Position numbers and translations under genes: made by a program. This document shows, piece by piece, positions 31,992-50,663 of a stretch of DNA of 64,000 bases. Each line of letters starts with the position of its first letter. Positions within the stretch are counted from its first letter, which is position 1. The DNA is from Henriciella sp. (GTDB taxonomy: Bacteria > Pseudomonadota > Alphaproteobacteria > Caulobacterales > Hyphomonadaceae). The DNA lies in assembly GCA_017642885.1 (NCBI GenBank), contig JAEPOM010000009.1, forward strand, positions 1-64,000. The letters run 5' to 3'. Below the pieces are notes generated by a model, which saw only the letters and a program-made list of their open reading frames with translations, did no database searches and was not told where the DNA came from.

Positions 31992-32061
31992 GTAGGAAGA
32001 GAGTTGTCTGAGAATGGGTGGGTTCGCCTTGGCCTTGAACCTGCGTCGCAGATCGATATGT

Positions 32062-32943: not shown

Positions 32944-32952
32944 TATCTCGCC

Positions 32953-34089: not shown

Positions 34090-34142
34090 TTTATGGGTTT
34101 TAGTTGGAGACTCCAATCTAATTTTGGATGGCTCCACCGTTA

Positions 34143-35108: not shown

Positions 35109-36235
35109 GCCTTATTCAGACTTTCTGAGGCCAAGGAGAGTTCGAACCCATTCTCTTTGAGGAACGCATGCCGGCGGGCTTCTTCCAAATCACGCTCGAC
35201 CATCTCCGCGCACATCTGTTCGACAGTGATTTCTGGCTCCCATCCCAGTTTTTCCTTCGCTCTGGTAGGATCACCGAGCAAAGTTTCGACTTCTGCGGGC
35301 CGAAAGTACCTCGAATCGACGGCGACGATCTTGTCCCCTACCGTGACCCCAGGTGCCTTATCTCCAATAATTGCCTCGACGATTCCATGCTCGTCAATAC
35401 CGGCGCCTTCAAAGCGAAGTTCAATCCCAAGCTCACGGGCACTCAAACGAACGAACTCCCGCACTGAAATCTGCTTCCCTGTTGCAATGACAAAGTCCTC
35501 AGCTTGTTCTTGCTGCAGCATCAGCCACTGCATCCGGACATAGTCTTTCGCATGCCCCCAATCACGCAGCGCGTCCATGTTACCCATGTACAAACACGAC
35601 TCCAATCCTTGCGCGATATTGGACAATCCCCGAGTGATCTTGCGGGTTACGAAGGTCTCTCCCCGTCGCGGAGACTCGTGATTGAAGAGGATACCGTTAC
35701 AGGCGAACATGCCATAGGCTTCGCGATAGTTTACAGTAATCCAATAGGCGTAAAGTTTCGCCACCGCGTACGGACTGCGGGGATAAAACGGCGTGGACTC
35801 TCTTTGCGGGGTTTCTTGTACGAGGCCGTATAGTTCGGATGTAGAAGCCTGATAGAACCGTGTTTTATTCTGCAGGCCCAATAAGCGAATGGATTCCAGA
35901 AGTCTGAGTGAACCAAGGGCGTCCACGTCAGCGGTATACTCAGGCGACTCAAAGCTCACCGCGACATGCGATTGCGCGCCAAGATTGTATACTTCATCGG
36001 GCTGCACATCTTGGATGATGCGGGTTAAGTTGGAGCCGTCCGTCAAATCGCCATAGTGTAGGAAGAAGGACGGATCCGCTTCATGGGGATCTTGATAAAT
36101 GTGATCGATGCGCTGGGTATTGAACGACGAAGCGCGCCGTTTGAGACCGTGAACTTCGTATCCTTTCTCTAGCAAAAATTCTGCTAGATAAGACCCGTCT
36201 TGGCCAGTCGTTCCAGTAATTAAGGCGCGTTTCAT
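35105..36235 (-). CDS. gmd: GDP-mannose 4,6-dehydratase
   Basis: SDR enzyme (376 aa) forming GDP-4-keto-6-deoxy-D-mannose. Landmarks: '[37 protein letters not shown]', '[15 protein letters not shown]', '[38 protein letters not shown]' containing YxxxK, and '[18 protein letters not shown]'. Residue order and length match the Gmd family. It precedes fcl with a 4-nt overlap. GDP-mannose could come from the guanylyltransferase fusion at 48489. Confidence 0.97.
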
Positions 36236-36302
36236 TGTAGGAGCTCACTTCAAGCTAAATGGGTGATCCGATCAGCACACGTTTGGCTTTTGATTTATTC
36301 AG

Positions 36303-37205
36303 TTACCAATAGCAACCGCCTTCTACATTCTCAGCGTAGGCGGGGACAAATTTGGTGGGAATTTCATCAACCCAAAGGTCAGGGTGTGTGGAGAAGCTGT
36401 CCAACAAGCGGTCTTTTGGGTGAAGCGCCCGGTCGTGGGGGTTGTTCCTCCAACGCCCACCCATGATTCCGAAATAGAGTTGCATAGCTCCCCCGCAATA
36501 GAACACGTGGTGCCCTCTTTTGTGGAGTTGATCAGCGATTGGCACACCCATCGAACCGCACGACAACATGATCACACTGCCGGTTGGGGCGCGTTCGTCG
36601 ATCGCTTGAACGGCCCAATCGATGGTTTCAAACGCAGATGCGTGCGGTCCACAATTATTGAAGCAATAGGGGAAGCCAAATCCACTCACCCGATCTGCAC
36701 GAAACTGCGGTCTGAGTTGCTGCAATCTTCCAGACTTAAACTGATCGACCATAATCTTCGCAAACGGCGAGACTAGAACGACCGACTGTTGTTGCGATAT
36801 GTCTTCGATCCAGGAGTAAGTGAACGTCTCAAAAACCGGCGCATCGGGGTGCCGGATCGGCCGGAAGAGAGAGTCCAAGGCCTCAAATCCGTTGCCAAAC
36901 ATTTCGTCAGCATCGACGAGTGAACGATACAAATAGACGAGCGATGTTGCGTCGGAACATGAGTCTAAATAAAGCGCCCAGTAATCTCGAACCGACTGTG
37001 TGACATGGGTTGACCACGCGATCTCGTTGAGAGGTGTGTCCTGTAGCGAAAACGCGTTGTCGTAAAAGCCGATTGTGTTCCACTGGTGACGCAGCTTGGA
37101 TCGTGCAAATTGAGAATTCTGGTCAGCAACGGACCCTCGATTGAGCAATAGCAGCATGGCGGATTCAGTAACCCCCACGCGAATACACTTCTGAACCGTC
37201 TTCAC
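36303..37205 (-). CDS. GT-D-fold-like glycosyltransferase candidate
   Basis: Protein of 300 aa. The C-terminal half has the pattern of GT-D-like transferases in polysaccharide loci: 'GSVIMLSCGSMGVPIADQLHKRGHHVFYCGGAMQLYFGIMGGRW', ending in 'VEGGCYW'. The N-terminal half contains 'TESAMLLLLNRG' and 'SWIEDISQQQSVVLVSPFAKIMVDQF'. I infer a sugar transferase of this less common fold; donor and acceptor are unknown. It is placed 67 bp upstream of gmd on the same strand. Confidence 0.65.
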   Translation of the reverse strand: MKTVQKCIRVGVTESAMLLLLNRGSVADQNSQFARSKLRHQWNTIGFYDNAFSLQDTPLNEIAWSTHVTQSVRDYWALYLDSCSDATSLVYLYRSLVDADEMFGNGFEALDSLFRPIRHPDAPVFETFTYSWIEDISQQQSVVLVSPFAKIMVDQFKSGRLQQLRPQFRADRVSGFGFPYCFNNCGPHASAFETIDWAVQAIDERAPTGSVIMLSCGSMGVPIADQLHKRGHHVFYCGGAMQLYFGIMGGRWRNNPHDRALHPKDRLLDSFSTHPDLWVDEIPTKFVPAYAENVEGGCYW

Positions 37206-37274
37206 AAAGCTCTCCCTTTTCCTCCCGACAATGTTGCCTGATTCATTTACGCTGAGAGGTTTGAGCGGTGGTGC

Positions 37275-38039
37275 TTAATCTTCGAATGGATTAACCGCCG
37301 GCTCATGTACATGCTCACCAAAGCCGTGCTGCCACTTCGGCCAAACCACTTTTCCCTCGGTGTATTGCCATGGTCGAAACTTGATCTCGCGATCTCGAAG
37401 TCGATTATTGATCATCACCAAGTCAACTAACGCTAATTGTCCAAAATAGTAAGCGTTGTCGCAGATATCGAACATCCGAAATCCGGATTTTTCCAGCAAA
37501 GCAGCCCGCGAACATAGATCCTGGCGCCCAATGGATGCTTCGATGATGACGAAAGACGCCCCAGCGATTACGTTTCGCCCGCCTTCGATGATTTGCTCTT
37601 CGACGCCGTCGACATCCAGTTTGATCAGATACGACAAATCCCCGAGTTCATTCGGTGCCATAGCGGTGTCCAATCGACGCGTTTCAATCTCTTCAATATC
37701 GATCAGAAAATCGAGCGATTCGTTTCGCTCAGGCTTGATGTGTGAATGCGTAACGCGTCCCGAGCCATCAACGCTCGTGTTATGAAGAAACAAGGTTCCG
37801 TCAACGTCGCTTAATGCTTGCTTGTGGAGCGTATACGCGATGCCCGCGTCGGAATAGTTTTTCTCCAAATCATCGTAGTAGGCGCGAACGGGCTCAAACA
37901 AATGATGGTGTTTATCTGGATAAACATCCATCAGAAAGTCTGTCCGACGCTGGACGCCAATGTCGATGACCCGCTGCACGGAAGATGGCGAAATCTCACG
38001 GACGATGCGGAGTGATTGTTGTAATGTCGGGTATCTCAT
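37275..38039 (-). CDS. FkbM-family methyltransferase
   Basis: SAM-dependent O-methyltransferase of 254 aa. The SAM-binding region is 'SVQRVIDIGVQRRTDFL', followed by 'HHLFEPVRAYYDDLEKNYSDAG', 'ALSDVDGTLFLHNTSVDGSG' and the FkbM core 'LDFLIDIEEIETRRLDTAMA', 'YLIKLDVDGVEEQIIEGG'. In glycan loci these enzymes often O-methylate a sugar. Its start overlaps the stop of the upstream P-loop gene by 4 nt, so they are co-translated. Confidence 0.88.
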   Translation of the reverse strand: MRYPTLQQSLRIVREISPSSVQRVIDIGVQRRTDFLMDVYPDKHHHLFEPVRAYYDDLEKNYSDAGIAYTLHKQALSDVDGTLFLHNTSVDGSGRVTHSHIKPERNESLDFLIDIEEIETRRLDTAMAPNELGDLSYLIKLDVDGVEEQIIEGGRNVIAGASFVIIEASIGRQDLCSRAALLEKSGFRMFDICDNAYYFGQLALVDLVMINNRLRDREIKFRPWQYTEGKVVWPKWQHGFGEHVHEPAVNPFED

Positions 38040-38728
38040 GAGCTCTCCGGAGATCTATCTTCGACGACGTAGTTTTTTTGAGCCAACGATCGTCCTAGCG
38101 CAGAATTATCGCCGATGAAGTTGGAGAATGCTGATTTCATCTCGTCTGTCACGAGGTGGTCCGCAGGTTCACCCCGATAGGAATAGTTTCCGATGATCTC
38201 ATTCGTTTTTTTAGTGCGTAGAAAGCCAATCTCATCAAGGTAATCGCTTACATTTTGTTTAGATAGATCGGGTCTGTAGCAGATCACGTCACCGCCAACG
38301 TTCGCGTACAGGTTAAGAGACCTCAAATAAGTATTGGAAAGATGATCGACGCTGTGTTCAGTGAACTTCTTGGTGGCGGACGCGACGTAGCTGCTCGGCT
38401 CGCGCAGCATGAACACGATACGATCCGGAGAACCAAACATTTCGTTCAGCCGCATAAACTCATTTAAGGAGGAATTGGCCTGTTTGAATATGAGACCGAC
38501 ACTTGTGCCGTAACCGTGATGGGCATTCGAATAGATATTCGCATACAAGTTCGAAAGAAAGGCAGATTGATTTAGCCTAGGGATCCTTTCACTCGTTGAC
38601 AACATGGGGCCTAAACCCCAATCCGAGACCAGACGTTCAGCGCTCGACGCAAAGAGGCGCGAAAAGTAACTCGTCCCGGATCTGCCGGGTCCATAGACGT
38701 ACCACCAAGATTTCTCGTTTGGTTGCAA
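38036..38728 (-). CDS. sulfotransferase-like P-loop protein
   Basis: Protein of 230 aa beginning almost at once with a phosphosulfate-binding-type loop, 'WWYVYGPGRSGTSYFSRLF', and containing 'DRIVFMLREPSSYVASATKKF', which matches the 3'-phosphate-binding segment of sulfotransferases (R-x-P...S). It is shorter than average (250-300 aa), but both PAPS-contacting blocks are present, so activity is plausible. Translationally coupled to the FkbM methyltransferase downstream, suggesting two modifications of the same sugar. Confidence 0.75.
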   Translation of the reverse strand: MQPNEKSWWYVYGPGRSGTSYFSRLFASSAERLVSDWGLGPMLSTSERIPRLNQSAFLSNLYANIYSNAHHGYGTSVGLIFKQANSSLNEFMRLNEMFGSPDRIVFMLREPSSYVASATKKFTEHSVDHLSNTYLRSLNLYANVGGDVICYRPDLSKQNVSDYLDEIGFLRTKKTNEIIGNYSYRGEPADHLVTDEMKSAFSNFIGDNSALGRSLAQKNYVVEDRSPESS

Positions 38729-38778
38729 TTCTGTTCTCCGTTCTATGAAAAATGCTCAATATGAGGTGCTGATCGTTG

Positions 38779-39585
38779 TCATTCGGGCGACGGTCGCAAC
38801 TCTTCCTCCAATCGGCGAGATGCCTCGAACCAATATTCTCGGTCGGGTTCGATTGATAGGAAAATGTGAGAAAGCACGGTGCCTTGATTCAGGAAGGACT
38901 CGACGCTTTGCTGTGAGATATGAGTTTTGGAAATCGCAGAATTATATATCTTGACTATTGCGCATGCTTTATTCTTGAGAAAATTTGTGGCGTTCGCCCC
39001 TACCTGCGTCGGCAGGTCCCAGTTTTTGGCGCTATATTCGCCGACTCCCGTTGGGTCCCAAATGCTCTGTGGTATAAAGTTTACGCGCGATTTTTGGGCT
39101 TGAATGAGTTCTTTGCAATTTCCTGGATTGCCAAACACTTGTCTATCGGATTTTAGCATGTTGGTAGCTGCTTCGGAAATAATCGGATCGTTCGGATAAC
39201 CGCCAAAAAATTGCTCGGAATGCCAAAGTGTTTTTTCGGCGCTCAACAACGCCATAATCTCCGTGAAAAAGTCCTTCAACACGATTGTATCTGCATCCAA
39301 CCAGATACCTCCATTAGTTCGAATATACTCGAATCGCAGAAAGTCCGATTTCGCGACAATACGAGAAATCTCGTTTTTTACGGGGTCTTTATGGCCCGCG
39401 AACAAAAATGGTTTCGATGAAAAATCAAAGTCGATATGCTGAGATATGTTTCGCGGCGTGAGCAACAGGAAATTGTCCCCTAGTGCTCTTTGCATGCTCA
39501 CGAGGCAACACAGAATATACGGTGGAATATGTGGTTTAAGCTTACTGGTTTCCCAATAAGAGAAGATCTTGGTTTTATCGCTCAT
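38779..39585 (-). CDS. GT32-like glycosyltransferase
   Basis: Transferase of 268 aa with the DxD-sugar-binding pattern of GT32/capsular polysaccharide synthesis enzymes: 'KIFSYWETSKLKPHIPPYI', then 'KSDFLRFEYIRTNGGIWLDADTIVLKDF' where D-A-D is the metal site, and 'CKELIQAQKSRVNFIPQSIWDP'. No membrane segment. Its start overlaps the stop of the exostosin-like gene by 11 nt, so the two are part of one transcript. Confidence 0.85.
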   Translation of the reverse strand: MSDKTKIFSYWETSKLKPHIPPYILCCLVSMQRALGDNFLLLTPRNISQHIDFDFSSKPFLFAGHKDPVKNEISRIVAKSDFLRFEYIRTNGGIWLDADTIVLKDFFTEIMALLSAEKTLWHSEQFFGGYPNDPIISEAATNMLKSDRQVFGNPGNCKELIQAQKSRVNFIPQSIWDPTGVGEYSAKNWDLPTQVGANATNFLKNKACAIVKIYNSAISKTHISQQSVESFLNQGTVLSHIFLSIEPDREYWFEASRRLEEELRPSPE

Positions 39586-40603
39586 AAAGGCTCATTTGCT
39601 CAACAATAATATTTTTGTATCCGGCAGGACCAACAACTGAATATAGGTCTTTCCCTGCTTTCAACATTGCGATTCTATCGTCGACTGTAATTTGTTTGGC
39701 GCAATCAAGCGCCTGCCGATAGCCCTGTTCTGAATCCTCTTCAATAATCGCTGCGCGTTGCCAGAGCGACTGGTCGCCGGGCAGGCGCAGGTCCTTCGTC
39801 AGGATGATTGGAATGGATCCTAAAGCGAGGCATTCAAACAATCGGATACTATTAGGTCCTGATCCGGTGGGGCAGAGCGTGAACCATGACGATCGAATAG
39901 CCTGCAAATACTCTTGTTTTTCAGTGTCTTCTTTCGAGAGTTCCGCGTGGCTTGGAGTGCGTCCCTGTACTTGCTCGTGGTAAACGGCGCGATCAAAGTG
40001 CCATTGACCGCGCTTGACTATTCTCAAATCAGGCTCGGTGCGGGCGTCTTCGAAAATTACTTTCCTCACGTTGCTCAAATAGATTTTCGGATTGTATGCC
40101 CCAACGAAGTTTGCGAGATACCGCTTTTCTGGTGCCGAGCTTCCAACGAAATCGGGTGCTTGGGCGGGAAAAAGAGGAAACGGATGCACGCGTATACCGT
40201 TCATCTCTGTGACTGAGGTTGTGGCATGAGACCAAAATAGGTCTGTCACACCCATCGTCGCGAAGATCTCGATAAACTCGTCGGCACGAATATGTTGCGC
40301 GACAGTGCACCGCTTTTTGGGCTCGCGGGTAAGATCGCGTTTCGTGTTCCCGAGCGCGCTCAATATCTCGCGAGCACTTCTAGTACGGTTCGCTACCCCA
40401 TCAATCAAAGTGGCCCAGGCAAATGCGAGATAGTCAAAACCGTGATTACTTTCAGACTTCGAGATAGCCCGGAATGCCGCTTCTTCAGTGGCTGCAGGTT
40501 TTTGCCAATAGTTGTTATAAGCGTGTATTCCGATGCCAGACTCCGCAAGTAGTTGTTTCTTGCGGTTTTTTGGCTCATCTGGCTTAGCAACAAGTTTGTT
40601 CAT
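39575..40603 (-). CDS. exostosin-like (GT47-type) glycosyltransferase
   Basis: Protein of 342 aa. The C-terminal nucleotide-sugar-binding region resembles exostosin: 'FTLCPTGSGPNSIRLFECLALGSIPIILTKDLRLPGDQSLWQRAAIIEED'. The N-terminal part contains 'RCTVAQHIRADEFIEIFATMGVTDLFWSHA'. The ATG at 40603 follows the stop of the upstream gene by 8 nt and has GGGGG 6 nt before it; the frame opens at 40645. Members of this group add hexoses or uronic acids; the specificity cannot be read. Confidence 0.82.
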   Translation of the reverse strand: MNKLVAKPDEPKNRKKQLLAESGIGIHAYNNYWQKPAATEEAAFRAISKSESNHGFDYLAFAWATLIDGVANRTRSAREILSALGNTKRDLTREPKKRCTVAQHIRADEFIEIFATMGVTDLFWSHATTSVTEMNGIRVHPFPLFPAQAPDFVGSSAPEKRYLANFVGAYNPKIYLSNVRKVIFEDARTEPDLRIVKRGQWHFDRAVYHEQVQGRTPSHAELSKEDTEKQEYLQAIRSSWFTLCPTGSGPNSIRLFECLALGSIPIILTKDLRLPGDQSLWQRAAIIEEDSEQGYRQALDCAKQITVDDRIAMLKAGKDLYSVVGPAGYKNIIVEQMSLYER

Positions 40604-40611
40604 TTTGCCCC

Positions 40612-41283
40612 CTAACCCAACACGCTCAATAACTCGGTTCGACAAGCATCGAACTCCGCTATTTGGCTTGATTTTGCTCGAGACATCGGCGGCTCATAAT
40701 CCGAACATTCGCGTATCTGTCTTACCGATTCCAGGCCCCGCTCTAGGAACGGAGTGGCAAAATGAACCGACGGCAGATAGGAGCCCATGAAGATCTTGTC
40801 TAGAGCGTGCGGAGAGGTCAGTAACGGCTCATCAAAAATGCTGCGCAAATACCACAAGTATCGCTTCGCCAGTTCGCCACTTAACTTTTTGGATCCGGAG
40901 CTTGGTACGGAAAAGGTTGGAACCAGTGAAAATTGATCCGAACAAGCGAAAGCATTAAATAGGTTCCGCGCGAGACAGTCTGCAATTGTGCGCCTATGGA
41001 GCCGCAAGAAATACAAATCAGTGTGCGATAAATAGACGGAGCTTGCAGTCTCCAAGAAAGGCAGGAGTGCCGATGCGCCCCTAGAGCGTGAGCACGCGTC
41101 GAGATCGAGCTGCGGGGCTGCGAACAACATTGTCGATTCCTCGGCGTTCGGAGCGATGCGAATAGCACACGCTTCGAAATCGATCTCAAGACCAGATTTC
41201 GATCGAATAGCTTGTGCCAATAATTGATCGAAATTAGCGCAATGCGGACCGTATTCGGTAAAGGTGGAGATCGTAAAATCCAT
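40612..41283 (-). CDS. unknown protein within the polysaccharide locus
   Basis: Protein of 223 aa that I do not recognise. It is soluble, without signal peptide or membrane helix. Features: Cys- and Ser-rich middle ('DLDACSRSRGASALLPFLETASSVYLSHTDLYFLRLHRR'), and 'LAKRYLWYLRSIFDEPLLTSPHALDKIF', a helical stretch. It lies tightly between a two-domain glycosyltransferase and an exostosin-like gene (18- and 8-nt gaps), so it is surely expressed with them. Possible roles are an accessory factor or a diverged transferase; I assign none. Confidence 0.7.
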   Translation of the reverse strand: MDFTISTFTEYGPHCANFDQLLAQAIRSKSGLEIDFEACAIRIAPNAEESTMLFAAPQLDLDACSRSRGASALLPFLETASSVYLSHTDLYFLRLHRRTIADCLARNLFNAFACSDQFSLVPTFSVPSSGSKKLSGELAKRYLWYLRSIFDEPLLTSPHALDKIFMGSYLPSVHFATPFLERGLESVRQIRECSDYEPPMSRAKSSQIAEFDACRTELLSVLG

Positions 41284-41301
41284 GGCCTAAAAAACCAACT
41301 C

Positions 41302-43131
41302 CTACTGTTCCAAACTCAACAAATCGCGCCAATCAGGGCGATGTTTCGCGAGCCAGCTCTCGCATTGACGAATTTGCATGTCGTTCAATCCTAGGTCCAC
41401 ATTCTCGGCCATAAGCGTCCCCTCCCGCATGGTGGGCGTATACCGATGGTACCAGTCTGAACCACTGCTCAGTTCAGTCGCCATGGTTGGGCGTTCTTGC
41501 AGAAGGGCATTGAACTTCAACCAAACATCATCAGCGTATGGCGCATTGCGCAGTATTGTGCGTTCGTCCCTAATACACGGGTGGTTAAAAAACCCAGGCG
41601 GATAGAGAACTCCTCCAGCACCCGTCGGCATCAAGATGTATGAGGGAGCGTTCGTTCGCGCCTCGCGTTCCCAGGTTCGATACGGCCCGATATTTTTGTC
41701 GTCGTCGACCGCTATCTTGTGACATCTGTTGCCAATGATTGCTTCAGGATGCTGCTGATGCGCCTCGAGCAGTTTTTGCATCGAATGGGGTGGATAGATT
41801 ACATCGTCGTCTACGATAATATAGCATTTTTCTCTAAGAGAAGCGGGAAGGTGCACGAATTTATCATATTGGTGGCAGGTTTTCTCCACGAAGTGAATTT
41901 GCAGGCCGTGCTGCTTCAGTTCACGGACACTGGAAGGAAGCCAGTTTTCGTTTGGAATCTCATCTCGACCGAGAAATAGATTAATTGTGTCCGCTTGTTG
42001 AGACTGCTCTTTTAGCGACCGGAGCACGAAGCCGAGCGTGGAGATTCGTTTTGGAAAAGACGTCAATCCTATTGAGTACTGAGTACCGGAGGGAGCGGAT
42101 GTCATCGGTAAAATTCGATCAAACCTACGTTGTTCTTGAGCGGCAAATTCCTTGATGTCCTGTCGCAATGCTTCTTGCGCCTGGCGAGATTTCGAAACCT
42201 CTGAGGCTCGCCTTGTCTGAGCGGATAGGAGGTTGGCGACTTCTGTCTCGGCCTTATCGCCTAGAGCCGTGATCGCCGCATCGCGCAGGTTCTGCACTAT
42301 TGCAGGACTCAGGCTCTTTGATTGTCGCTGGAACAAAGTGTCCAAGATCATGAGCGCGAGATGTTTCTGTTCTCTTCCTCGACTGTTTCTCAGCAGTTGG
42401 AGCATGTCGCTGACATGCGTGCATTTGCGCCTGAACTCGACAATCTTTTCTTCGATGTCGCCTTTGTCAAATGCGTATTCAGACTGCAGTGTGTCAACAA
42501 TCGACTTTTTGGTTCTGACAAGGTCAGCTGATATGCCAGGATCACCGGCGCGTATGGCCCACACTTCTGGGCACAATTCGATTTGTGCGTCGTTCGCAAA
42601 CAGCCGACCCAATTGCAACGTGTCACTATCGGTCTTGTGACTTCGTTCGTCGAATTTGCAATCCAATAAGAGAGAGCGCTTCACGAAAAGTGCTTGGTGG
42701 CAAAACCCGAGGCTTGAGAGCTTGAAAGCTTCCCCTGCGTGCCATGATGCCCATACATTATCATTCAAAGCGCCCCAGCCCAAGCATCCATCCTTGTCGC
42801 GGTTTTCGAGTATCTTCGCCGCCTGGTTAAGCACCAGGTCTTCTGCAAAAACGTCGCCAGCGTTGAGGAAACAAATGAATTCGCCGGTGGCTAGATCGAT
42901 ACCATTATTCATGGCTTGGTACACGCCAGAATCTGGCGCGTGAATAGATCGGTCCACTAGCTTCTGTTCTTTCCAGAACTCTGTAAGCTCTCGGGTTCCA
43001 TCATTGGAAGCCCCGTCCACTATCAGGTACTCGAAATCGGCATCTCGCTGACGAAATACGGATCGCGCGGTTTTTGTCAGCGCCCACGCGTGTTTGTACG
43101 AAACAGTGATGATCGAAAATAATGGAGCCAT
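41302..43131 (-). CDS. two-domain glycosyltransferase (GT2 plus second GT-A domain)
   Basis: Protein of 609 aa with two catalytic-looking domains. Domain 1 (about residues 1-240) is GT2: 'LFSIITVSYKHAWALTKTARSVFRQ', 'EYLIVDGASNDGTREL' and 'FICFLNAGDVFAEDL'. A helical segment (about 240-340) rich in Gln, Arg and Glu follows. Domain 2 (about 345-600) begins 'YSIGLTSFPKRISTLGFVLRSL' and has the DxD site 'CYIIVDDDVIYPPHSMQKLL' and 'GAGGVLYPPGFFNH'. Bimodular transferases of this kind often build alternating disaccharides. ATG 43152 is an alternative start overlapping the upstream gene. Confidence 0.88.
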   Translation of the reverse strand: MAPLFSIITVSYKHAWALTKTARSVFRQRDADFEYLIVDGASNDGTRELTEFWKEQKLVDRSIHAPDSGVYQAMNNGIDLATGEFICFLNAGDVFAEDLVLNQAAKILENRDKDGCLGWGALNDNVWASWHAGEAFKLSSLGFCHQALFVKRSLLLDCKFDERSHKTDSDTLQLGRLFANDAQIELCPEVWAIRAGDPGISADLVRTKKSIVDTLQSEYAFDKGDIEEKIVEFRRKCTHVSDMLQLLRNSRGREQKHLALMILDTLFQRQSKSLSPAIVQNLRDAAITALGDKAETEVANLLSAQTRRASEVSKSRQAQEALRQDIKEFAAQEQRRFDRILPMTSAPSGTQYSIGLTSFPKRISTLGFVLRSLKEQSQQADTINLFLGRDEIPNENWLPSSVRELKQHGLQIHFVEKTCHQYDKFVHLPASLREKCYIIVDDDVIYPPHSMQKLLEAHQQHPEAIIGNRCHKIAVDDDKNIGPYRTWEREARTNAPSYILMPTGAGGVLYPPGFFNHPCIRDERTILRNAPYADDVWLKFNALLQERPTMATELSSGSDWYHRYTPTMREGTLMAENVDLGLNDMQIRQCESWLAKHRPDWRDLLSLEQ

Positions 43132-43135
43132 GGAT

Positions 43136-44098
43136 CTAATGTGGTGAATCAATAACGGAATAATCGAGTCGCTGAGCCAATTCTAAGTACGATTTCGATT
43201 CCCGCACTTCCTTAACCAAATCGGTTGGCAATTCCAGAGTTGGCCGCAAAGAGATTTCACTTGATTTTCGACCACTGTCTCCCGAGAATTTAAATGAGTG
43301 GAACACATCTTGGAATTCTTTCGAGTAGGAAAGCTTCAAATGTTCGCAGATTTCCTTCATTACAATTCTGGGGCTTTTGGCAAATTCTTCGTATTTGATC
43401 AGCGGAGCATCCTGATACGCTTCCAAAAAAGTCAGGTATCGCTGGCAGTATTCCTCAAAGGAACTCGGCTGCATGTGGGTGTGCCATCCCATTCTTTGCA
43501 TTGAATGATAGCTGTGGACAGGATTTCGGACCGTTAGGAGCGTCAAGCAGTCGATGCCTGCCTCATCTAAAGCATCTCTCATCGTCCGATGGGCCCGAGG
43601 AGCGGGCCCGTACAAGAAATGGCTGTGCGCATGATCTCGAAGCACAACCGCTTGACCCTGCTTTTGATAGTGGTCCCTAATGGACATTATCGATTTCGAA
43701 AACAGCTCAAAAACAAGATCCGGGTCCGGCGTGATGCCCGACTGATACAGCAGGGAAACTAAATCGGTCGGGGTAAAGTTGTTGTTTGCGCGGGCAAACG
43801 GAATTTCGCTAAGCATATCGATCTCATTTAGCACTAGCGTGTTCGCCATCGACGCGACGCATTTTGAAATTAGCGTTCCGCCCGTGCAAGAGAGGTGGTG
43901 CAGCGTGCGCACCGGTTCGGGGTGGGGTGACTGGATTTTCGCAGCACGCCGCTGCAAATCCCTGAGAATATCGCGGGCACTTTTTGAAGTCGAAAACCTT
44001 GCGCCTGTTCCTGGCTTTGCGCCGCTCACATCGCGCGCAAGCGACCGAATGGCTCGCAATTGGCCAAAAACAGATTTTTCGGGCTTTGTCGCGGTCAT
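43136..44098 (-). CDS. sulfotransferase-family protein
   Basis: Putative sulfotransferase of 320 aa. The phosphosulfate loop is 'TLHHLSCTGGTLISKCVASMANTLVLNE' after a basic N-terminal ~70 residues, and the 3'-phosphate-binding element is 'LLTVRNPVHSYHSMQRMGW'. 'LIKYEEFAKSPRIVMKEICEHLKLSYSKEF' is the typical family C-terminal segment. It is the third sulfotransferase-like gene of the locus. The start overlaps the stop of the coiled-coil gene by 4 nt (44095-44098), so the two proteins are probably made in step. Confidence 0.82.
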   Translation of the reverse strand: MTATKPEKSVFGQLRAIRSLARDVSGAKPGTGARFSTSKSARDILRDLQRRAAKIQSPHPEPVRTLHHLSCTGGTLISKCVASMANTLVLNEIDMLSEIPFARANNNFTPTDLVSLLYQSGITPDPDLVFELFSKSIMSIRDHYQKQGQAVVLRDHAHSHFLYGPAPRAHRTMRDALDEAGIDCLTLLTVRNPVHSYHSMQRMGWHTHMQPSSFEEYCQRYLTFLEAYQDAPLIKYEEFAKSPRIVMKEICEHLKLSYSKEFQDVFHSFKFSGDSGRKSSEISLRPTLELPTDLVKEVRESKSYLELAQRLDYSVIDSPH

Positions 44099-45156
44099 TT
44101 CGACTTGGCCATGGGGGTTTCAGGACTCTCCGCTTTGCTAAAAAGAGCTTCTCCCGCGCTGGCTTCTTCAAAAACGCTTTGCGCAAACCGTTCAAGCGCC
44201 TCGTTTCTTTCGCAAAGCACACGATACTTGGTTTGCAGGTCGGCCAGATCGTTCTTAGTCAGCAGAAATTTGCTGTTCAGATCCTTTGAGCTTTCAAGAT
44301 CTCGACTGAGCTCTGCAACCCTTTCTTGTGCTTCCTGGAAACGTTTTGCTTGTTCGTCCAGCTGCTCCCGTAGCGAGTTGAGTTCGTCACTTTTTTCGAG
44401 AAACGCTACATTTAGGGTTGTGAATTCTGTTTTGCGGTCCGTTAGCTCAGTATTTGCAGCTGATAGTTCGGTTTTTAAGCCACCTGCCTCGGATTGCAGT
44501 CCCGCAATTTCAGAAGTGAGGTCAGTGATTTTTGAGCCAAGGCGAGATTTCCAATCGTTGCAGAATATCGTCGACCTCAAATTTGGATGGCGTGATTCGA
44601 GAGTTTCTGCCGCTGTGAATCCATTCGCCAGTACGGTGGGCTCAGGTGGTGCGTAATTATTCAACATCGATACTTGATCGCCAATTAGGTGCCGACAAAT
44701 GATGAGGTCGAACAATTCGAGGTGATCTGATGCTTGTTCCAGCAAAGATCCGAAATCTAAGCGCTCTGAAATGATCCAATCGAACGATTTGTCGCTATTC
44801 GAAAGGTAATCAGCGAGGCTGACGGACGGGTAATCCGCGATCTCATCAGCTTCGATATTCTTCCACAAAAAGCGAAGCTCGGCGGGGTCAATAAACCCAG
44901 ACTCTCTGAGCAGGCTCATTTTGTAGAATTTGGATTTTCCAGCCACGGAAGCAATCACCGTCGGGTCTATGGTCAAATGAGCGCTTTGGAGCCAATCTGG
45001 TTCGGCAAGCGCCGCGACTGCGGCTTCATCCGGATGAACCACCACCACATCTGCCGCACCAATTGCCATGATCTGACGAAACGTCGCAGCGGGTACCAAA
45101 CCTAAGACAAGTATTGCCTTAGGGGGATGAGTTCTTGCCCAAGTGTTTGTAATCAT
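44095..45156 (-). CDS. coiled-coil protein with a degenerate Rossmann/methyltransferase-like N-terminus
   Basis: Protein of 353 aa. The N-terminal ~200 residues have an alternating beta/alpha pattern loosely like FkbM methyltransferases ('KAILVLGLVPAATF', 'ADVVVVHPDEAAVAALA', 'SKFYKMSLLRESGFI', 'VSLADYLSNSDKSFDWIISE'), but I see no intact SAM-binding motif. Residues ~205-335 form a long heptad-repeat coiled coil rich in Glu, Leu, Lys and Ser ('SKITDLTSEIAGLQSEAGGL', 'KSDELNSLREQLDEQAKRFQ'). No membrane segment. It is divergent from another coiled-coil gene and coupled to a sulfotransferase. A scaffold or chain-length-control role is inference. Confidence 0.75.
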   Translation of the reverse strand: MITNTWARTHPPKAILVLGLVPAATFRQIMAIGAADVVVVHPDEAAVAALAEPDWLQSAHLTIDPTVIASVAGKSKFYKMSLLRESGFIDPAELRFLWKNIEADEIADYPSVSLADYLSNSDKSFDWIISERLDFGSLLEQASDHLELFDLIICRHLIGDQVSMLNNYAPPEPTVLANGFTAAETLESRHPNLRSTIFCNDWKSRLGSKITDLTSEIAGLQSEAGGLKTELSAANTELTDRKTEFTTLNVAFLEKSDELNSLREQLDEQAKRFQEAQERVAELSRDLESSKDLNSKFLLTKNDLADLQTKYRVLCERNEALERFAQSVFEEASAGEALFSKAESPETPMAKSK

Positions 45157-45386
45157 TCTTCTACCGGTCCGTATGTGCGGAGTATCGAATTTGCAGGAGA
45201 AAGATTTCCTCCATCGACATATTACGTGTGTTTTTTCAGTTGTGCTTTATCACTACGTCTGGCTCAAGTACGACAAATTCACCTTCAGCTGACAATTTTC
45301 AGCGTTTTTTGTAGCTTTCCGTTGGCTTATTTACTTCCTCGTGGCAACTGAAATCTATGGTCTTCCTACACGAAGAGGGTCCGAAT

Positions 45387-46901
45387 GTGACGATAATGAT
45401 ATCGAGCGCGGTGCATGAAGATTGGTGCGCCTTCGCGGGGTCGCGGTTGACGGCGATGGGGGTCCAAAAGCCCCTCAGCGGTGAGCGCTCAGGATTGGCA
45501 CCGACTGCGCTGGCTCAAAAGATGCACCTGGCAAGCGGTGCACCAAACGATGTATTCAACAATGTCGCTCCACAAAATCTAGGACAGACTTGGTCGATTG
45601 CTGCTGCGGAAGTCGTGCTGGCCAACGCCGAGCAGGAAGTTTGGGGTTGGGCTGATCCGCTCAATCTGCCGTTCATGGAATTCTGGAAGGAATTTGACCC
45701 AAGATGCCGTTTCGTCTTGGTGTATGGGTCCCCTGCTAAGTACATATCGAGTGAGATCACGCGTTCAGCTGATGCCATTGATCGCGTCGACCATATCCTG
45801 AAGCGCTGGACGTCTTTCCATTCCTCGATGCTTTCATTCTATCAGCAAAACCAGGATCGTTGCATTCTAACAGATATTCGCGGCTTCGACGGATCGGCGG
45901 CGCCGGTCGCTGAAACGCTAACCCAGAAGTTCGATATAAACGCGTCGGCGCTGGACCACAGCGAGTATTGTGCGGAGACTCCTACCTTGGAGATTATTTC
46001 AGAGCGGATCATGGCGCCAAGGCACGAACAGACAGAGCTGTTTTCAGAACTCCAGAACTCCGCCGACATCGCTATTGGGGCGTCTTCAAACTCGAATAGA
46101 GGCCTCTCTGAGAAAGCGATCGAGGAGCAATTGGCGATGCGCGCAGAAACAGGCGCACAAATTGCCACAATCGGTTCTCAGCATGCGAAGATCGCAGAAC
46201 TCGAGCGTCAGATTGCAGAACACGAGACACGGATTCAGCAGTTGTTGGAAAATGCGGAAACTCGAACGGACGCAAACTCTACCTTATACAAAAGACAGTT
46301 GGACCAAGTGCGAGATGAGTTGCACTATTACTATAGCAAATACAGCGAACTAAGCGCGCCTGCGGCCTCAGGCCGAGTGATGAACGAACCAGCGAGTTCG
46401 AACACTCAATCGCCTTCAGCGCACGCCAGTTCAGTTTTGATTGACCTCGGTTCATTTGTCGACGGCGCGGGTTGGCACCAACCAGAGGAACGTGGGCGTT
46501 GGGCCGGTGCTGAATCTAGAAGTACTTGCAACATTCCGGCTCTGCGCCCAGGAAAGTACAGGGTCACGGCCAGAATTCTTGATTCTATGGGTTTGGAGAT
46601 TCTGCGAAGCATGAAAATTGAACTTAACGGTGTCAATCTGAATGCTCGGCTCAAAATTCTGTGCGATATGGGGGGGCGCCTAGCTCCACTGAGGCGTGCG
46701 AAAGCGGGATTTAATAATGTCGAGAATCCTTTTCCGGCGAGCTTGGTTGCGTCGATACGGGCTCACAATCTGAGTAATTCCGGGCCGAACGAACTCGCAA
46801 TCATTAGTGAATTGGTGCGAAGCCCTAGCGCAGTTTCCGGGGATGATGATAGACTCTTGTCCTGTTTCTTCGAAAACATCGAGATTGTTCGAGTAGATTA
46901 A
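45387..46901 (+). CDS. coiled-coil protein with sulfotransferase-like head and beta-sandwich tail
   Basis: Protein of 504 aa, three parts. Residues ~1-220 resemble a degenerate sulfotransferase fold: 'WGWADPLNLPFMEFWKEFDPRCRFVLVYGSPAKYI' parallels the W-G-W-K-D-P and R-x-P elements of the family, but the usual Lys and Arg positions are A and G and no phosphosulfate loop is evident. Residues ~235-325 are a coiled coil ('GSQHAKIAELERQIAEHETR'). The tail contains 'GAGWHQPEERGRWAGAESR' and 'LRPGKYRVTARIL', a beta-sandwich pattern seen in glycan-active proteins. GTG 45387 has GAGGG upstream; ATG 45357 and 45396 are alternatives. The stop overlaps the wzm start (TAATG). Confidence 0.78.
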   Translation: MTIMISSAVHEDWCAFAGSRLTAMGVQKPLSGERSGLAPTALAQKMHLASGAPNDVFNNVAPQNLGQTWSIAAAEVVLANAEQEVWGWADPLNLPFMEFWKEFDPRCRFVLVYGSPAKYISSEITRSADAIDRVDHILKRWTSFHSSMLSFYQQNQDRCILTDIRGFDGSAAPVAETLTQKFDINASALDHSEYCAETPTLEIISERIMAPRHEQTELFSELQNSADIAIGASSNSNRGLSEKAIEEQLAMRAETGAQIATIGSQHAKIAELERQIAEHETRIQQLLENAETRTDANSTLYKRQLDQVRDELHYYYSKYSELSAPAASGRVMNEPASSNTQSPSAHASSVLIDLGSFVDGAGWHQPEERGRWAGAESRSTCNIPALRPGKYRVTARILDSMGLEILRSMKIELNGVNLNARLKILCDMGGRLAPLRRAKAGFNNVENPFPASLVASIRAHNLSNSGPNELAIISELVRSPSAVSGDDDRLLSCFFENIEIVRVD

Positions 46902-47737
46902 TGCCGGGTACACGTAGTGAACGGGTCGAACCCCTCAGAGGGTTTGCGCTGCAGCCAGGCAAGGCGTTCGAAGATATCGTGAATGGCGCGAAGCTCTGGC
47001 GCATATGGTTCGCATTGGCCTGGCAAGAGTTCGCATCGATGTATCGCCGATCTCTTTTGGGCGTCTTCTGGGTGATGTTATCATTTGCAGGCTTCGTATT
47101 CATCAAAATTTTGATTTTCTCGTCTCTGCTAGCGTCGGAGGATGCGCAGTATTACGACGCATATCTGGTGCTCGGTTTCTTCATGTGGGTCTATTCTCAG
47201 CAAGTTATCATCGCGGCACCAGATACATTCGTGAGTGCAGCGGGGTGGATTCGTAGTGAACCCCTCCCATTATCGCTATATATTTATAAGTCAGTGATGC
47301 GAGAGATTTTCAACTTGTCGTTCACGGGCGCAGTAGTTGCAATCGCTTTAGTTTATTTGAAGTTCCCAATCGGGATCGAGGCGCTTTTTGCCGTGCCCGC
47401 AATCGCCTTTTTGATTTTGAACGCCTTCGTTGTGAAATTGTTGCTCGGGATCGTCGGGGCGAAGGCTCGCGATGTGGCTCATCTGGTGCGGGCTGCGATA
47501 CTGCCGATGATGTTCTTGACGCCGATATTCTGGATGCCGTCTCAAATGTCGCGAATTTTTCATATCTTATGGTGGAATCCACTGTTTCATGTTTTGGAGA
47601 TTTTTCGAGCACCGATTCTGGACCGCACCTTTCCGGCGGAGAGCTGGATTTACATGATCTGTTTCTTTCTGATTGTATCTATTTTGGGGTTTGTCCTTTT
47701 CTCTCGCTTCAGGCAGCGAATAGTTTTTTGGTTCTGA
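46901..47737 (+). CDS. ABC-2 polysaccharide export permease (Wzm/KpsM-like)
   Basis: Inner-membrane permease (278 aa) of an ABC-type glycan exporter. Six or so hydrophobic segments follow an amphipathic N-terminus ('LAWQEFASMYRRSLLGVFWVMLSFAGFVFIKILIF', 'YLVLGFFMWVYSQQVII', 'FTGAVVAIALVYL', 'LFAVPAIAFLILNAFVVKLLLGIVGAKARDVAHLV', 'AAILPMMFLTPIFWMP', 'WIYMICFFLIVSILGFVLF'). This is the ABC2/RfbD-type pattern. TAATG overlap with the coiled-coil gene upstream and a 3-bp gap to the ATPase show a three-gene operon. Confidence 0.93.
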   Translation: MPGTRSERVEPLRGFALQPGKAFEDIVNGAKLWRIWFALAWQEFASMYRRSLLGVFWVMLSFAGFVFIKILIFSSLLASEDAQYYDAYLVLGFFMWVYSQQVIIAAPDTFVSAAGWIRSEPLPLSLYIYKSVMREIFNLSFTGAVVAIALVYLKFPIGIEALFAVPAIAFLILNAFVVKLLLGIVGAKARDVAHLVRAAILPMMFLTPIFWMPSQMSRIFHILWWNPLFHVLEIFRAPILDRTFPAESWIYMICFFLIVSILGFVLFSRFRQRIVFWF

Positions 47738-47740
47738 AGA

Positions 47741-48484
47741 ATGGCTCGCATTGAAGCAAAAAACCTGTCTCTTCATTATCCTCTGACCGGAGGAGCTGAT
47801 AAGCATATCGGCATCGATCGCGAACCGGAATCGGTTGTGAGCGTTGGGAGGAAAAAGTATATTCTCGCGCTTCGAAATGTTAGCTTCGAGATTGGCAAGG
47901 GCCAGAACGTCGGACTTATCGGACGCAATGGATCTGGAAAGTCGACTCTCCTCCGGGTTTTGGGAGGGATTTTCACTCCGACAAGTGGTCAGGTATTGAC
48001 AACCGGGAAGGTTTCATCGCTCTTCGGAATGAACCTGGGTATCCAAATTGACGCAACAGGCCGAGAGAATATCGTTTTGCGCGGAACGATCAAAGGATGG
48101 TCCCGTAGTCAACTCGAAGAGAAAATCCCTGAAATTATAGAATTCAGCGAGCTCGAGGAATTCATAGACTTGCCGCTGCGCACATATTCAGATGGAATGC
48201 GCATGCGCCTGCTTTTTGCGATTGCGACCGTCTTTTCGCCTGAAATATTGCTGCTGGATGAATGGATTGGCGCTGGCGACGCCCGATTTCAATCTAAAGC
48301 AAAAGACCGTATGAATTCACTCGTTTCGCAAGCGGGTATCACCGTGATCGCCAGCCATAATCGTGGATTGATCCAGAGTGTTTGTGATCGAGGCGTCTGG
48401 TTACACAAGGGGACAATGCGTGCGTACGGTCCCATCGATAAAGTCTATAAAGAAATGGACGCCTATTTCGCGAACAACGATTGA
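47741..48484 (+). CDS. polysaccharide export ABC ATPase (Wzt/KpsT-like)
   Basis: ATPase (247 aa) that energises glycan export with the permease before it. Walker A is 'VGLIGRNGSGKSTLLRVLGG', the signature is 'RTYSDGMRMRLLFAIATVF' (D in place of the commoner S or G), Walker B is 'EILLLDEWIGAGDARF', and the switch His is in 'IASHNRGLIQ'. It ends shortly after the ATPase core, so it has no C-terminal carbohydrate-binding domain such as that of O9a-type Wzt. This favours KpsT-like capsule export or recognition by a separate protein. Confidence 0.94.
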   Translation: MARIEAKNLSLHYPLTGGADKHIGIDREPESVVSVGRKKYILALRNVSFEIGKGQNVGLIGRNGSGKSTLLRVLGGIFTPTSGQVLTTGKVSSLFGMNLGIQIDATGRENIVLRGTIKGWSRSQLEEKIPEIIEFSELEEFIDLPLRTYSDGMRMRLLFAIATVFSPEILLLDEWIGAGDARFQSKAKDRMNSLVSQAGITVIASHNRGLIQSVCDRGVWLHKGTMRAYGPIDKVYKEMDAYFANND

Positions 48485-48488
48485 TAGC

Positions 48489-50663
48489 TCACTGCTCGAA
48501 ACTCAACTGCAATGCTGTAGTCAAATGATACAGCATGCTTGAGGGAATCGCTTCCGCGATTGTTTCGCCTGAGTGGTTATACTCGTCTGACCACGCGCCC
48601 GGAACGTCAATAACTAAATACGAAGAGTAGAGCCTGACTAGAATACCTCGAGCGACAATATTACTCTCTGGTTCCGGCAGATTAATATAGGCTCGAAATC
48701 GCTCGAGTTGATGCCACAATCGGCTACTGCTATTTACGACGGTTGTGTCGGCGCGAACCATGTTCATCGCAAAACCCGTCTCCGGATTTAGGCTGGTAGA
48801 ATCTGCGCGGCGAATGAGGCGGCGACGCCAACTGAGCGTATCATGTCCAGTTCTTCTTTCATAATCTGAAAGTAGCGTCGCCCACTCATAGTGATGTCCA
48901 GGCTCGAACACGGTTTGGTCTTCTGATGTTTCCACCCGCCAATCTTGAGTAAAGTGCTCTGCCATGACATCTGTGCCGGGATTGAAAAATCGCGTCTCGA
49001 AAAGGCGTACGCATTCGGAGGCTCGTTTGAGCGCCGCTTCGCACCTGGTTGCCGCGTGATAAGCCAGCATCGCCTCCAGCAAATGCATATGCGGGTTGGC
49101 GCGGCGGGGGAGGGTGTCCGGAATGCCTTCAAACCAACCGCCATGCTCGTGGTCTTTCAACTCTGCATCAACGAAAGCGATCGCGTCGTCGGCCATCTCC
49201 AATGCTGTGTCATTGCCTGTAATTTGATAGGCTGTCGCTCCGGCCAGAATAATGAAGGCGTGGTCGTAAAGATCGCGGCGATCATCGACGGGGGATCCAT
49301 TCCGGGCGAACGTGTGCACCCAGCCGCCGTTTGGATGGCGCAGCCTTGTATTTAGGTAGTCTACACCGAGTTCGACCAGTTCGCGGGCTTTGTCCGCGCC
49401 GGGCCAACCCATCTCAATCGCTTTGGCGAAGCTGAAAATCTGTCGTGCCTGCACGCGCACGCGGCGTGTGGCCTCTAGGTCGGGTTCCCCTTCCATGCTG
49501 AGCTGCTCGACAAATCCGCCTTGCTCCGAGTCCCAGGCTTTTTCTGACCAGACATCAAACGCCGTCCATAGCCAGTTTCGAATATCATCGACCAAAGCGG
49601 AGGGCAGACCCAGCGCATGCCGCTGGCTTTGTACGCCAGCTCCGAGCGCTTTAACGGCCTGTGCGTCCTCCATAGGGGTGATGACCACCTCATCCTTGGT
49701 CGCAACGACGACAAGATTTGAAACCCCGTTCACGGCAACGGTCGGGCCTTCTGAGCGGACATACATGCCATGCGCATTTTGCAGCAAAACCGGCCCGTGC
49801 GTGTGGTTGTCGGAGGCGGAATCCGTCAGCAGGCCATGCAGTGCCGGATAACCGCCGACATCGCTCCAAGCCATGTCGACGGGAACCGTTTGAACGTTTT
49901 CGGCTCGTTCCATAACCGCGTAATCGATGGAAATGCTCGGCGTATCCGCGAATGCTTTGGGATCGAGACATTGCACATTGTCCGCACCTGCCGGCATCGC
50001 CGCACTGGTTCCCGCCAGAACTTCAGGCGCGTGCGCCTCTAGCGCCTTCAGCATCGTGTCGGCTCGAAACAGGAATATTCCTGCGTTCCAGTAGTATCCG
50101 CCCGCGTCCAGGTAAGACTGAGCCACCGCCAGGTCTGGCTTCTCGACAAATTTCTCGACCGGGACGGGCATGTGCAGCTCATCCGCTTGCGCTGCTTTGA
50201 TGTATCCATACCCGGTTGCCGGATGCGTCGGTTCGATACCGAACGTAACGATCGCGCCGTCTTCCGCTGCTTTGGCGGCAGCGGCAATTGCGAGATGAAA
50301 CGCTGGTACATCCTGAATCGAGTGATCGGCGGGCAGAATCAGAATGAGGTCATCAGGCTCGGATGCAAGACAAGCTGCCGCGACAGCCGGGGCGGAGTTT
50401 CGTCCAAATGGCTCGAGGATTTTCCGCGCGTCCGGTAGGGTTTGTTCCAACAAATGCCGGTGCTTTACCGATCCGACGACCAGCGGTGTCGTGAATGACA
50501 GGCTGGGATCAGAACTCGTCACAAACCGGTCCGCGGTTTCCTCGATCATGCTTTTTTCAGAGGTAAGCGCTTTGAACTGTTTCGGCATTTCCGGCGTCGA
50601 AAGCGGCCAAAGCCGGGTTCCGGAGCCACCGCACAAGATAACTGGATGCACAATGTGGCTCAT
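48489..50663 (-). CDS. mannose-1-phosphate guanylyltransferase fused to AGE-type isomerase
   Basis: Bifunctional candidate of 724 aa. N-terminal domain (about 1-345): guanylyltransferase with 'VILCGGSGTRLWPLSTPEMPKQF', 'DLILILPADHSIQD', 'KFVEKPDLAVA' and 'MAWSDVGGYPALH'. C-terminal domain (about 350-720): N-acylglucosamine-2-epimerase/mannose isomerase (AGE) alpha-barrel with His-bearing blocks 'YDHAFIILAGATAY', 'NPHMHLLEAMLAY' and 'EPGHHYEWATLL'. It would make GDP-mannose from mannose-1-phosphate and probably interconvert mannose-6-phosphate and fructose-6-phosphate. The usual fusion partner (ManC/AlgA) is a cupin isomerase instead. It feeds gmd-fcl. Confidence 0.9.
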   Translation of the reverse strand: MSHIVHPVILCGGSGTRLWPLSTPEMPKQFKALTSEKSMIEETADRFVTSSDPSLSFTTPLVVGSVKHRHLLEQTLPDARKILEPFGRNSAPAVAAACLASEPDDLILILPADHSIQDVPAFHLAIAAAAKAAEDGAIVTFGIEPTHPATGYGYIKAAQADELHMPVPVEKFVEKPDLAVAQSYLDAGGYYWNAGIFLFRADTMLKALEAHAPEVLAGTSAAMPAGADNVQCLDPKAFADTPSISIDYAVMERAENVQTVPVDMAWSDVGGYPALHGLLTDSASDNHTHGPVLLQNAHGMYVRSEGPTVAVNGVSNLVVVATKDEVVITPMEDAQAVKALGAGVQSQRHALGLPSALVDDIRNWLWTAFDVWSEKAWDSEQGGFVEQLSMEGEPDLEATRRVRVQARQIFSFAKAIEMGWPGADKARELVELGVDYLNTRLRHPNGGWVHTFARNGSPVDDRRDLYDHAFIILAGATAYQITGNDTALEMADDAIAFVDAELKDHEHGGWFEGIPDTLPRRANPHMHLLEAMLAYHAATRCEAALKRASECVRLFETRFFNPGTDVMAEHFTQDWRVETSEDQTVFEPGHHYEWATLLSDYERRTGHDTLSWRRRLIRRADSTSLNPETGFAMNMVRADTTVVNSSSRLWHQLERFRAYINLPEPESNIVARGILVRLYSSYLVIDVPGAWSDEYNHSGETIAEAIPSSMLYHLTTALQLSFEQ

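Follow-up and report, generated by a model that had tools for sequence, protein, structure and literature searches.

A candidate pair of coiled-coil proteins with degenerate enzyme-fold heads beside a glycan exporter in Henriciella sp.

Introduction

In glycan systems that use an ATP-binding cassette (ABC) exporter, coiled-coil proteins are a marker of chain-length control, and the coiled-coil rulers found there bear an enzyme that terminates the chain and act together with a carbohydrate-binding module (CBM) on the exporter ATPase Wzt, as the available portion of PMC11231755 describes them. WbdD of Escherichia coli O8 appears in the accessible part of PMC3482155 as a simple methyltransferase. 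Here we analyse a stretch of 64,000 nucleotides from Henriciella sp. (assembly GCA_017642885.1, contig JAEPOM010000009.1, positions 1 to 64,000; the window), in which two divergent genes, P1 and P2, lie between a gene for a sulfotransferase-like protein (ST) and wzm- and wzt-like exporter genes. An original prediction, made from the letters of this DNA, had read the pair as a candidate chain-length ruler. Our results support the enzyme-like heads, the coils (the P2 coil less clearly), the possible sugar-binding sandwich and the adjoining glycan exporter that it had described, and neither demonstrate the ruler nor rule against it; we propose, with a probability of about one half, that P1 and P2 form a paired non-catalytic coiled-coil scaffold for glycan assembly.

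The pair resembles WbdD of E. coli O9a/O8 in that P1 joins a methyltransferase-fold N-terminal head to a long C-terminal coil in a system with a Wzm/Wzt exporter (available portions of PMC3482155 and PMC11231755). Unlike WbdD, it consists of two proteins, its heads are degenerate in the window, it has no kinase and P2 bears a conserved coil motif; unlike WbdD systems, the window Wzt is without a CBM and a CBM-like domain stands on the coiled-coil protein P2. A second likeness is to ORF6 of Klebsiella pneumoniae O7, an assembly protein that combines a methyltransferase-type head, a coil and a CBM and, unlike P2, has a methyltransferase-kinase terminator and glycosyltransferase (GT) modules (accessible text of PMC11231755). 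P2, unlike ORF6, has a sulfotransferase fold without the motifs for 3'-phosphoadenosine 5'-phosphosulfate (PAPS) and no further catalytic domain. The window exporter also resembles the galactan-type Wzm/Wzt of K. pneumoniae, with NF050109 and NF050108 as its best NCBIfam matches (below the curated cut-off) and a short ATPase; we know of no coiled-coil pair in the K. pneumoniae galactan locus.

Results

The two divergent genes stand where they had been predicted (Table 1). An ATGA at 44098-44095 is common to the P1 stop and the ST start, which gives the expected four-nucleotide coupling, and the TAA stop of P2 overlaps the wzm ATG as TAATG at 46899-46903. Alignment with relatives places the probable start of P2 at the GTG at 45387, not at 45357.

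Both proteins were modelled with AlphaFold2 using alignments of 47 P2 and 35 P1 proteins, with a mean predicted local distance difference test score (pLDDT) of 88.4 for P1 and 87.5 for P2. The P1 model has a head of about 200 residues followed by one helix of 138 residues, and its tail (335-353) lies under pLDDT 50. The P2 model has a head of about 230 residues, two helices of 56 and 31 residues, a link of low confidence (327-346) and a beta-sandwich. Compared with the PDB, the P1 head has the fold of S-adenosylmethionine (SAM)-dependent methyltransferases (best match 5pa7_B, Z 11.3, root mean square deviation 3.3, 151 residues aligned) and the P2 head that of sulfotransferases (5wri_A, Z 15.5, root mean square deviation 4.0, 211 aligned). 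The possible sugar-binding sandwich foreseen at the end of P2 is modelled as a putative CBM35-like domain, matching 2w1w_B (Foldseek E 1.1e-3, TMt 0.50) and folded only within whole P2.

Neither window head is named by Pfam or NCBIfam. Profile searches against the PDB gave three matches for P2, all in the coil, and 30 for P1, most of them to coils and a single one to the head (7d8u_A, E 0.0039). Pfam sulfotransferase models match 0 of the 47 P2 members; no FkbM match to the window P1 occurs among its best 25 Pfam/NCBIfam rows or at E 0.01, one of the 35 P1 members matches PF05050 (FkbM), and the P1 of locus L044 matches TIGR01444 below cut-off.

The coiled coil of P1 was examined by comparing the hydrophobic fraction at the best heptad a/d positions with 5000 shuffles. 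The fraction is 0.72 over residues 202-339 and was equalled by none of the shuffles. In sub-windows the score was reached by 0/5000 (202-250), 1/5000 (237-285) and 502/5000 (272-320) shuffles, so that the pattern is significant overall and in the first two thirds, not in the last. With a helix rise of 0.15 nm per residue the predicted coils measure about 21 nm (P1) and 13 nm (P2), near the 19 and 13 nm that had been estimated. Both enzyme-like folds and the long P1 coil of the original prediction held, and the coil of P2, modelled as two helices, was less clear.

The cofactor sites were checked in alignments of 39 P1 rows and 56 P2 rows, two of the latter being gapped at the site and 54 having a letter there. 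The motifs are known as 5'-PSB and 3'-PB for PAPS and as DVEG for FkbM proteins. In P2, a lysine or arginine stands in the 5'-PAPS loop of only 2/54 rows, those of L022 and L063 (the latter, read over a run of N, has RSG and RNP nearby and resembles a true sulfotransferase); the 3'-PAPS column holds arginine in 0/54, and from the SG pair of the loop the serine is kept in 26/54 and the glycine in 20/54. The window P1 has valine in place of the motif I acid, valine and alanine in place of the second and third glycines and histidine in place of the ribose acid, and keeps only the first glycine among the SAM-site marks checked. Across the P1 rows the first glycine is present in 39/39, the second in 35/39, the third in 28/39 and the ribose acid in 36/39, the other three, window included, having histidine; the glutamate of DVEG is absent from all 39. 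On these alignments P2 heads look non-catalytic across the family. P1 heads appear decayed in the window clade, and many outside the Henriciella clade may bind SAM. The decay predicted for both heads is seen in the window itself.

P1 and P2 are linked over large distances. In a set of 101 genomes, window genome included, P1 was found in 5 and P2 in 6, of which one (G003) has only the C-terminal domain of P2, on a different N-terminal part and again directly before wzm. In an even draw of the class (385 genomes, again with the window's own) P2 occurred in 2 and P1 in 1, so that either the family is thinly spread or remote members escape the first search. A single-protein P2 scan of genome contigs yielded 49 stretches, none confirmed. 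A profile scan with two seeds, run over 84,980 species genomes, found 53 loci; one seed lay inside the coil motif, which enriches its core positions. The loci belong to alpha-, beta- and gammaproteobacteria, Chlorobiaceae and bins of Desulfobulbus/Deltaproteobacteria, and tblastn of 72,556 records added one E. coli plasmid, pAL.H8. One locus, L066, is without P2 and was dropped, leaving 52; L055 and L056 carry identical proteins, and L020, L021, L022 and L036 are the same loci as G026, G001, G013 and G071. Contexts cover at most 10 kb on each side of P2, less on short contigs. In 42 of the 52 loci, or 42 of the 47 where sequence continues past P2 (five of the ten loci without P1 end at P2), P1 is the first or second gene counted from P2, with at most one P1 match per locus; 38 of the 42 were found with a small profile (A2) and the other four with a profile from the P1 set. 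With the pair conserved across loci, chance or artefact was rejected.

The coils of P2 carry QENELLLLQLHQVQEELEHYFL-like copies, with between one and three in a genome at a threshold of E 0.001. Thirteen flanking positions that were not seeded have a mean pairwise identity of 72% over 51 proteins; windows of 13 from the P2 head, taken for comparison, have a mean of 27% and a best value of 52%. The motif occurs in 27 of 29 genomes (27 from the 53 loci, with G000 and G258), always within one open frame per genome, and a general docking tag on many proteins was rejected for these 29 genomes on that ground. The P1 consensus has no comparable conserved block.

In four Henriciella pairs the residues after the P1 head number 152, 69, 76 and 123, about a twofold spread, while the distance from P2 head to motif stays at 65-72 residues. 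Family-wide, the P1 post-head length correlates with the P2 distance from head to last motif (rho 0.48, n=32, p 0.005, uncorrected for kinship; rho 0.45 with all 39 rows). A variable P1 spacer and a conserved P2 site fit a docking scaffold, and a ruler could show the same.

By pattern, at least four types of C-terminal module are found on P2 proteins, exchanged on a common core, and 12/52 have no assigned type; at L057 the CBM-like module is also encoded by itself next to P2. An ABC-2 permease matches in 12/52 loci, and the CBM-like module is found in 10 of these 12 versus 10 of the 40 others (Fisher p 0.0005), or, when L022 is moved to the permease group because its gene was missed by the caller of open reading frames (ORFs), in 11/13 versus 9/39 (p 0.0001), both values uncorrected for kinship. 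The exporter ATPases of the 12 permease loci have 214-248 residues and so are too short for a Wzt-type CBM of their own; the window Wzt matches only Pfam ABC_tran and, weakly, AAA_21. Type I secretion ABC and HlyD-like proteins match at 6/52 loci (Pfam check on the L064 proteins only). In the remaining P2 loci the DNA examined holds GTs or none of the gene types looked for.

At L064, L065, L067 and L069, in betaproteobacteria such as Limnohabitans, P2 is found near type I secretion ABC/HlyD-like genes; these loci perhaps serve glycosylated secreted proteins.

The plasmid pAL.H8 holds an adjacent P2-P1 pair (L074:14953-18558) in a kps-type cluster, after genes for an export protein, an ABC permease, an ATPase and a 'sugar transporter' labelled kpsD/kpsM/kpsT/kpsE-like. 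In RefSeq the P2 relative is WP_223042424.1 (DUF8374) and the P1 relative WP_223042425.1 ('O-methyltransferase'); the first relationship was found by tblastn, the second by eye and by a phmmer tag on the L026 neighbour. The plasmid P2 differs from that of the window in its end module, for which there is a weak match to the CJJ1420 O-methyl phosphoramidate transferase model, in the N-terminal part of that model. A search with the plasmid P1 returned itself and three plasmids at E 1e-3, the latter matching in the C-terminal part only, not the head. In many E. coli group 3 clusters the putative methyltransferases are described as varying in coil length (available portion of PMC13171606), and a SAM-dependent methyltransferase gene directly follows region 1 in plasmid-borne clusters (accessible part of PMC10433991); these may be relatives of P1. 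Our literature search returned no paper on the coil motif, DUF8374 or a pseudoenzyme sulfotransferase in capsule assembly.

Discussion

In the scaffold that we favour, P1 and P2 would be partner subunits of a complex that assembles glycan on the cytoplasmic side of the inner membrane. Their heads, a dead methyltransferase in P1 and a dead sulfotransferase in P2, would catalyse nothing and serve to hold glycan or partner enzymes, and the conserved coil motif of P2 would be a docking site for P1 or for a partner that both share. Where the pair is linked to an exporter, P2 would use its CBM-like domain in place of the one that Wzt lacks and present the completed, sulfated chain to Wzm/Wzt. Our computations show the folds, the missing cofactor motifs in the window, the linkage of the two genes in distant bacteria, the conserved motif, the exchangeable end modules and the short ATPases; that P1 and P2 form a physical complex, sit at the membrane, bind glycan and influence its length or export is our inference. 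If this is true, a widespread pair that keeps enzyme folds with lost active-site motifs, and a conserved coil motif across distant bacteria, would serve glycan machines in general as a component without catalysis, with an end module that varies with the export route. It would include an E. coli pair whose members RefSeq now annotates as a DUF protein and, generically, a methyltransferase.

Several observations weigh against the scaffold. The heptad score of the first P2 helix (237-292) was reached by 1890/5000 shuffles and is not significant; with that of the second (297-327) reached by 46/5000, the P2 coil is weaker than had been claimed. The window motif is itself diverged, with 35% identity to the first row of the motif alignment (A5). 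Loss of the cofactor motifs was judged by alignment alone, and ST, read by eye, is likewise without a basic residue in the 5' loop, so that this feature by itself is no proof of inactivity. The glycines and the ribose acid are mostly kept in P1 outside the Henriciella clade, which is why many of these proteins may bind SAM, and the plasmid P1, unlike that of the window, has a second methyltransferase-like region after its coil (weak, E 0.0024). P1 was not matched at five P2 loci whose DNA continues past P2 (L028, L032, L042, L057 and L067). Finally, 40/52 P2 loci have no ABC-2 permease match in the DNA examined around P2, so the export step cannot be general.

The original idea, a WbdD-type ruler in which the coil holds a terminating activity at a fixed distance from the polymerase and its length sets that of the glycan, is in our judgement unlikely, if the best of the alternatives. 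It would account for a methyltransferase-fold head on a coil, given the simple methyltransferase of O8 (PMC3482155, available portion), for the presence of coiled-coil proteins at an ABC exporter, where they mark this strategy (PMC11231755, likewise), for the varying P1 lengths beside a constant P2 distance in Henriciella, for the family-wide length correlation and for the SAM-site residues kept by P1 outside the window clade. WbdD entries do appear for P1 at Foldseek ranks 16 and 19, but this is the common shared fold, nothing beyond. In the window the SAM-site residues are lost, which makes P1 unlikely to cap a chain, and Wzt lacks the CBM that the described terminated systems carry (accessible text of PMC11231755). 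Two features that define the WbdD type, a terminator head that is active and a Wzt-borne CBM that recognises the cap, are thus lacking there, and the type I secretion loci do not suit a ruler either; a ruler-like way of working is possible without membership of that type. The WbdD type also has a C-terminal amphipathic membrane helix and a site that recruits the polymerase, and the tail of P1 (335-353) is of low confidence in the model. A wider scheme would unite scaffold and ruler in a two-protein, non-catalytic ruler or gate: dead heads on coils would hold the chain, a separate sulfotransferase would cap it, the P2 sandwich would replace the Wzt CBM as export checkpoint, and the same P1-P2 core with other P2 ends would serve other export routes. 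We offer it tentatively, as an improbable elaboration.

A reading of P1 as a methyltransferase and P2 as a sulfotransferase, each with a head that is active or binds its cofactor through unusual motifs, is doubtful indeed. The wider P1 set keeps its glycines and the acid at beta-2, the P2 loop retains serine or glycine in part of its rows, and RefSeq calls the plasmid P1 an O-methyltransferase; set against this, the 3'-PAPS arginine and the DVEG glutamate are missing from every row, and the window P1 is without the SAM-site marks checked except the first glycine. Least likely of all is a split ruler, in which the scaffold measures the chain and a sulfate from the separate ST coupled to P1 caps it: the ATGA coupling, an ST next to P1 in L020, L021, L022, L036 and others, an ST match in 11/52 loci and a sulfotransferase-methyltransferase fusion after P1 in L023 speak for it, but the DNA examined at the other 41 loci has no ST match and the window ST is under its Pfam cut-off.

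Locus organization and neighbouring genes

Table 1. Positions of the pair and adjoining features in the window
Feature	Position	Strand	Basis or remark
P1, degenerate FkbM-like SAM-methyltransferase-fold head and long coiled coil, 353 aa	44095-45156	-	
P1 head, residues 1-200	44557-45156	-	AlphaFold2 model, fold match, motif loss
P1 single continuous helix, residues 202-339	44140-44553	-	AlphaFold2 model, heptad pattern
ST, sulfotransferase-like protein	43136-44098	-	Pfam match below cut-off
P2, degenerate sulfotransferase-fold head, two helices, CBM-like C-terminal domain	45387-46901	+	Start GTG inferred
P2 mechanical ORF, 514 aa	45357-46901	+	
P2 head, residues 1-230, sulfotransferase fold without PAPS motifs	45387-46076	+	No Pfam match
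P2 helices, residues 237-292 and 297-327	46095-46367	+	AlphaFold2 model
P2 coil motif, diverged window form around QLDQVRDEL (family form QENELLLLQLHQVQEELEHYFL)	46272-46364	+	
P2 CBM35-like beta-sandwich, residues 349-503	46431-46895	+	Model, Foldseek
wzm-like ABC-2 permease	46901-47737	+	TAATG overlap with P2
wzt-like ATPase, 247 aa	47741-48484	+	Too small for a C-terminal CBM

The Pfam sulfotransferase score of ST is 20.4 bits against a cut-off of 22; its L036 relative passes, with 30.5 against 27. Relatives of ST adjoin P1 in three Henriciella relatives and in L016/L036. At L023:13173-15050 (+), directly after P1, a sulfotransferase-type domain (just under the Pfam cut-off) and Methyltransf_24 are found in one protein.

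The other genes of the window locus encode a GDP-mannose dehydratase, an epimerase, presumably of the GDP-fucose-synthase type, an exostosin-type GT, a Caps_synth GT and an FkbM methyltransferase. The locus contains two weak sulfotransferase matches, both under the Pfam cut-off, and the window genome encodes an adenosine 5'-phosphosulfate kinase, so that PAPS can be made. Taken together, the dehydratase, epimerase, GT, methyltransferase and sulfotransferase matches suggest that the product is a sulfated heteropolysaccharide. KpsC/KpsS (PF05159) has no match in the window genome, 2 of 14 controls matching, and a KpsC/KpsS-dependent capsule there was rejected. Near the locus lie genes that we take to be of the 3-deoxy-D-manno-oct-2-ulosonic acid (Kdo) type; despite these, a Kdo-linked group 2/3 capsule is unlikely, because KpsC/KpsS was not found.

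The G+C content is 47-51% at 32001-48000 versus 54-61% around it, and the glycan region may therefore be horizontally acquired. Within the glycan locus, two ORFs on the minus strand (36303-37205 and 40612-41283) have no Pfam match up to E 1. Beyond the exporter, at 48489-50663 (-), a nucleotidyl transferase is fused to a GlcNAc 2-epimerase-type domain, a fusion that adjoins the exporter in four relatives (L013, L014, L015 and L017). In a Robiginitomaculum bin, a protein of 1140 residues with Cas9-type RuvC_III, HNH and alpha-lobe matches adjoins P2 (L036:5917-9339, -).

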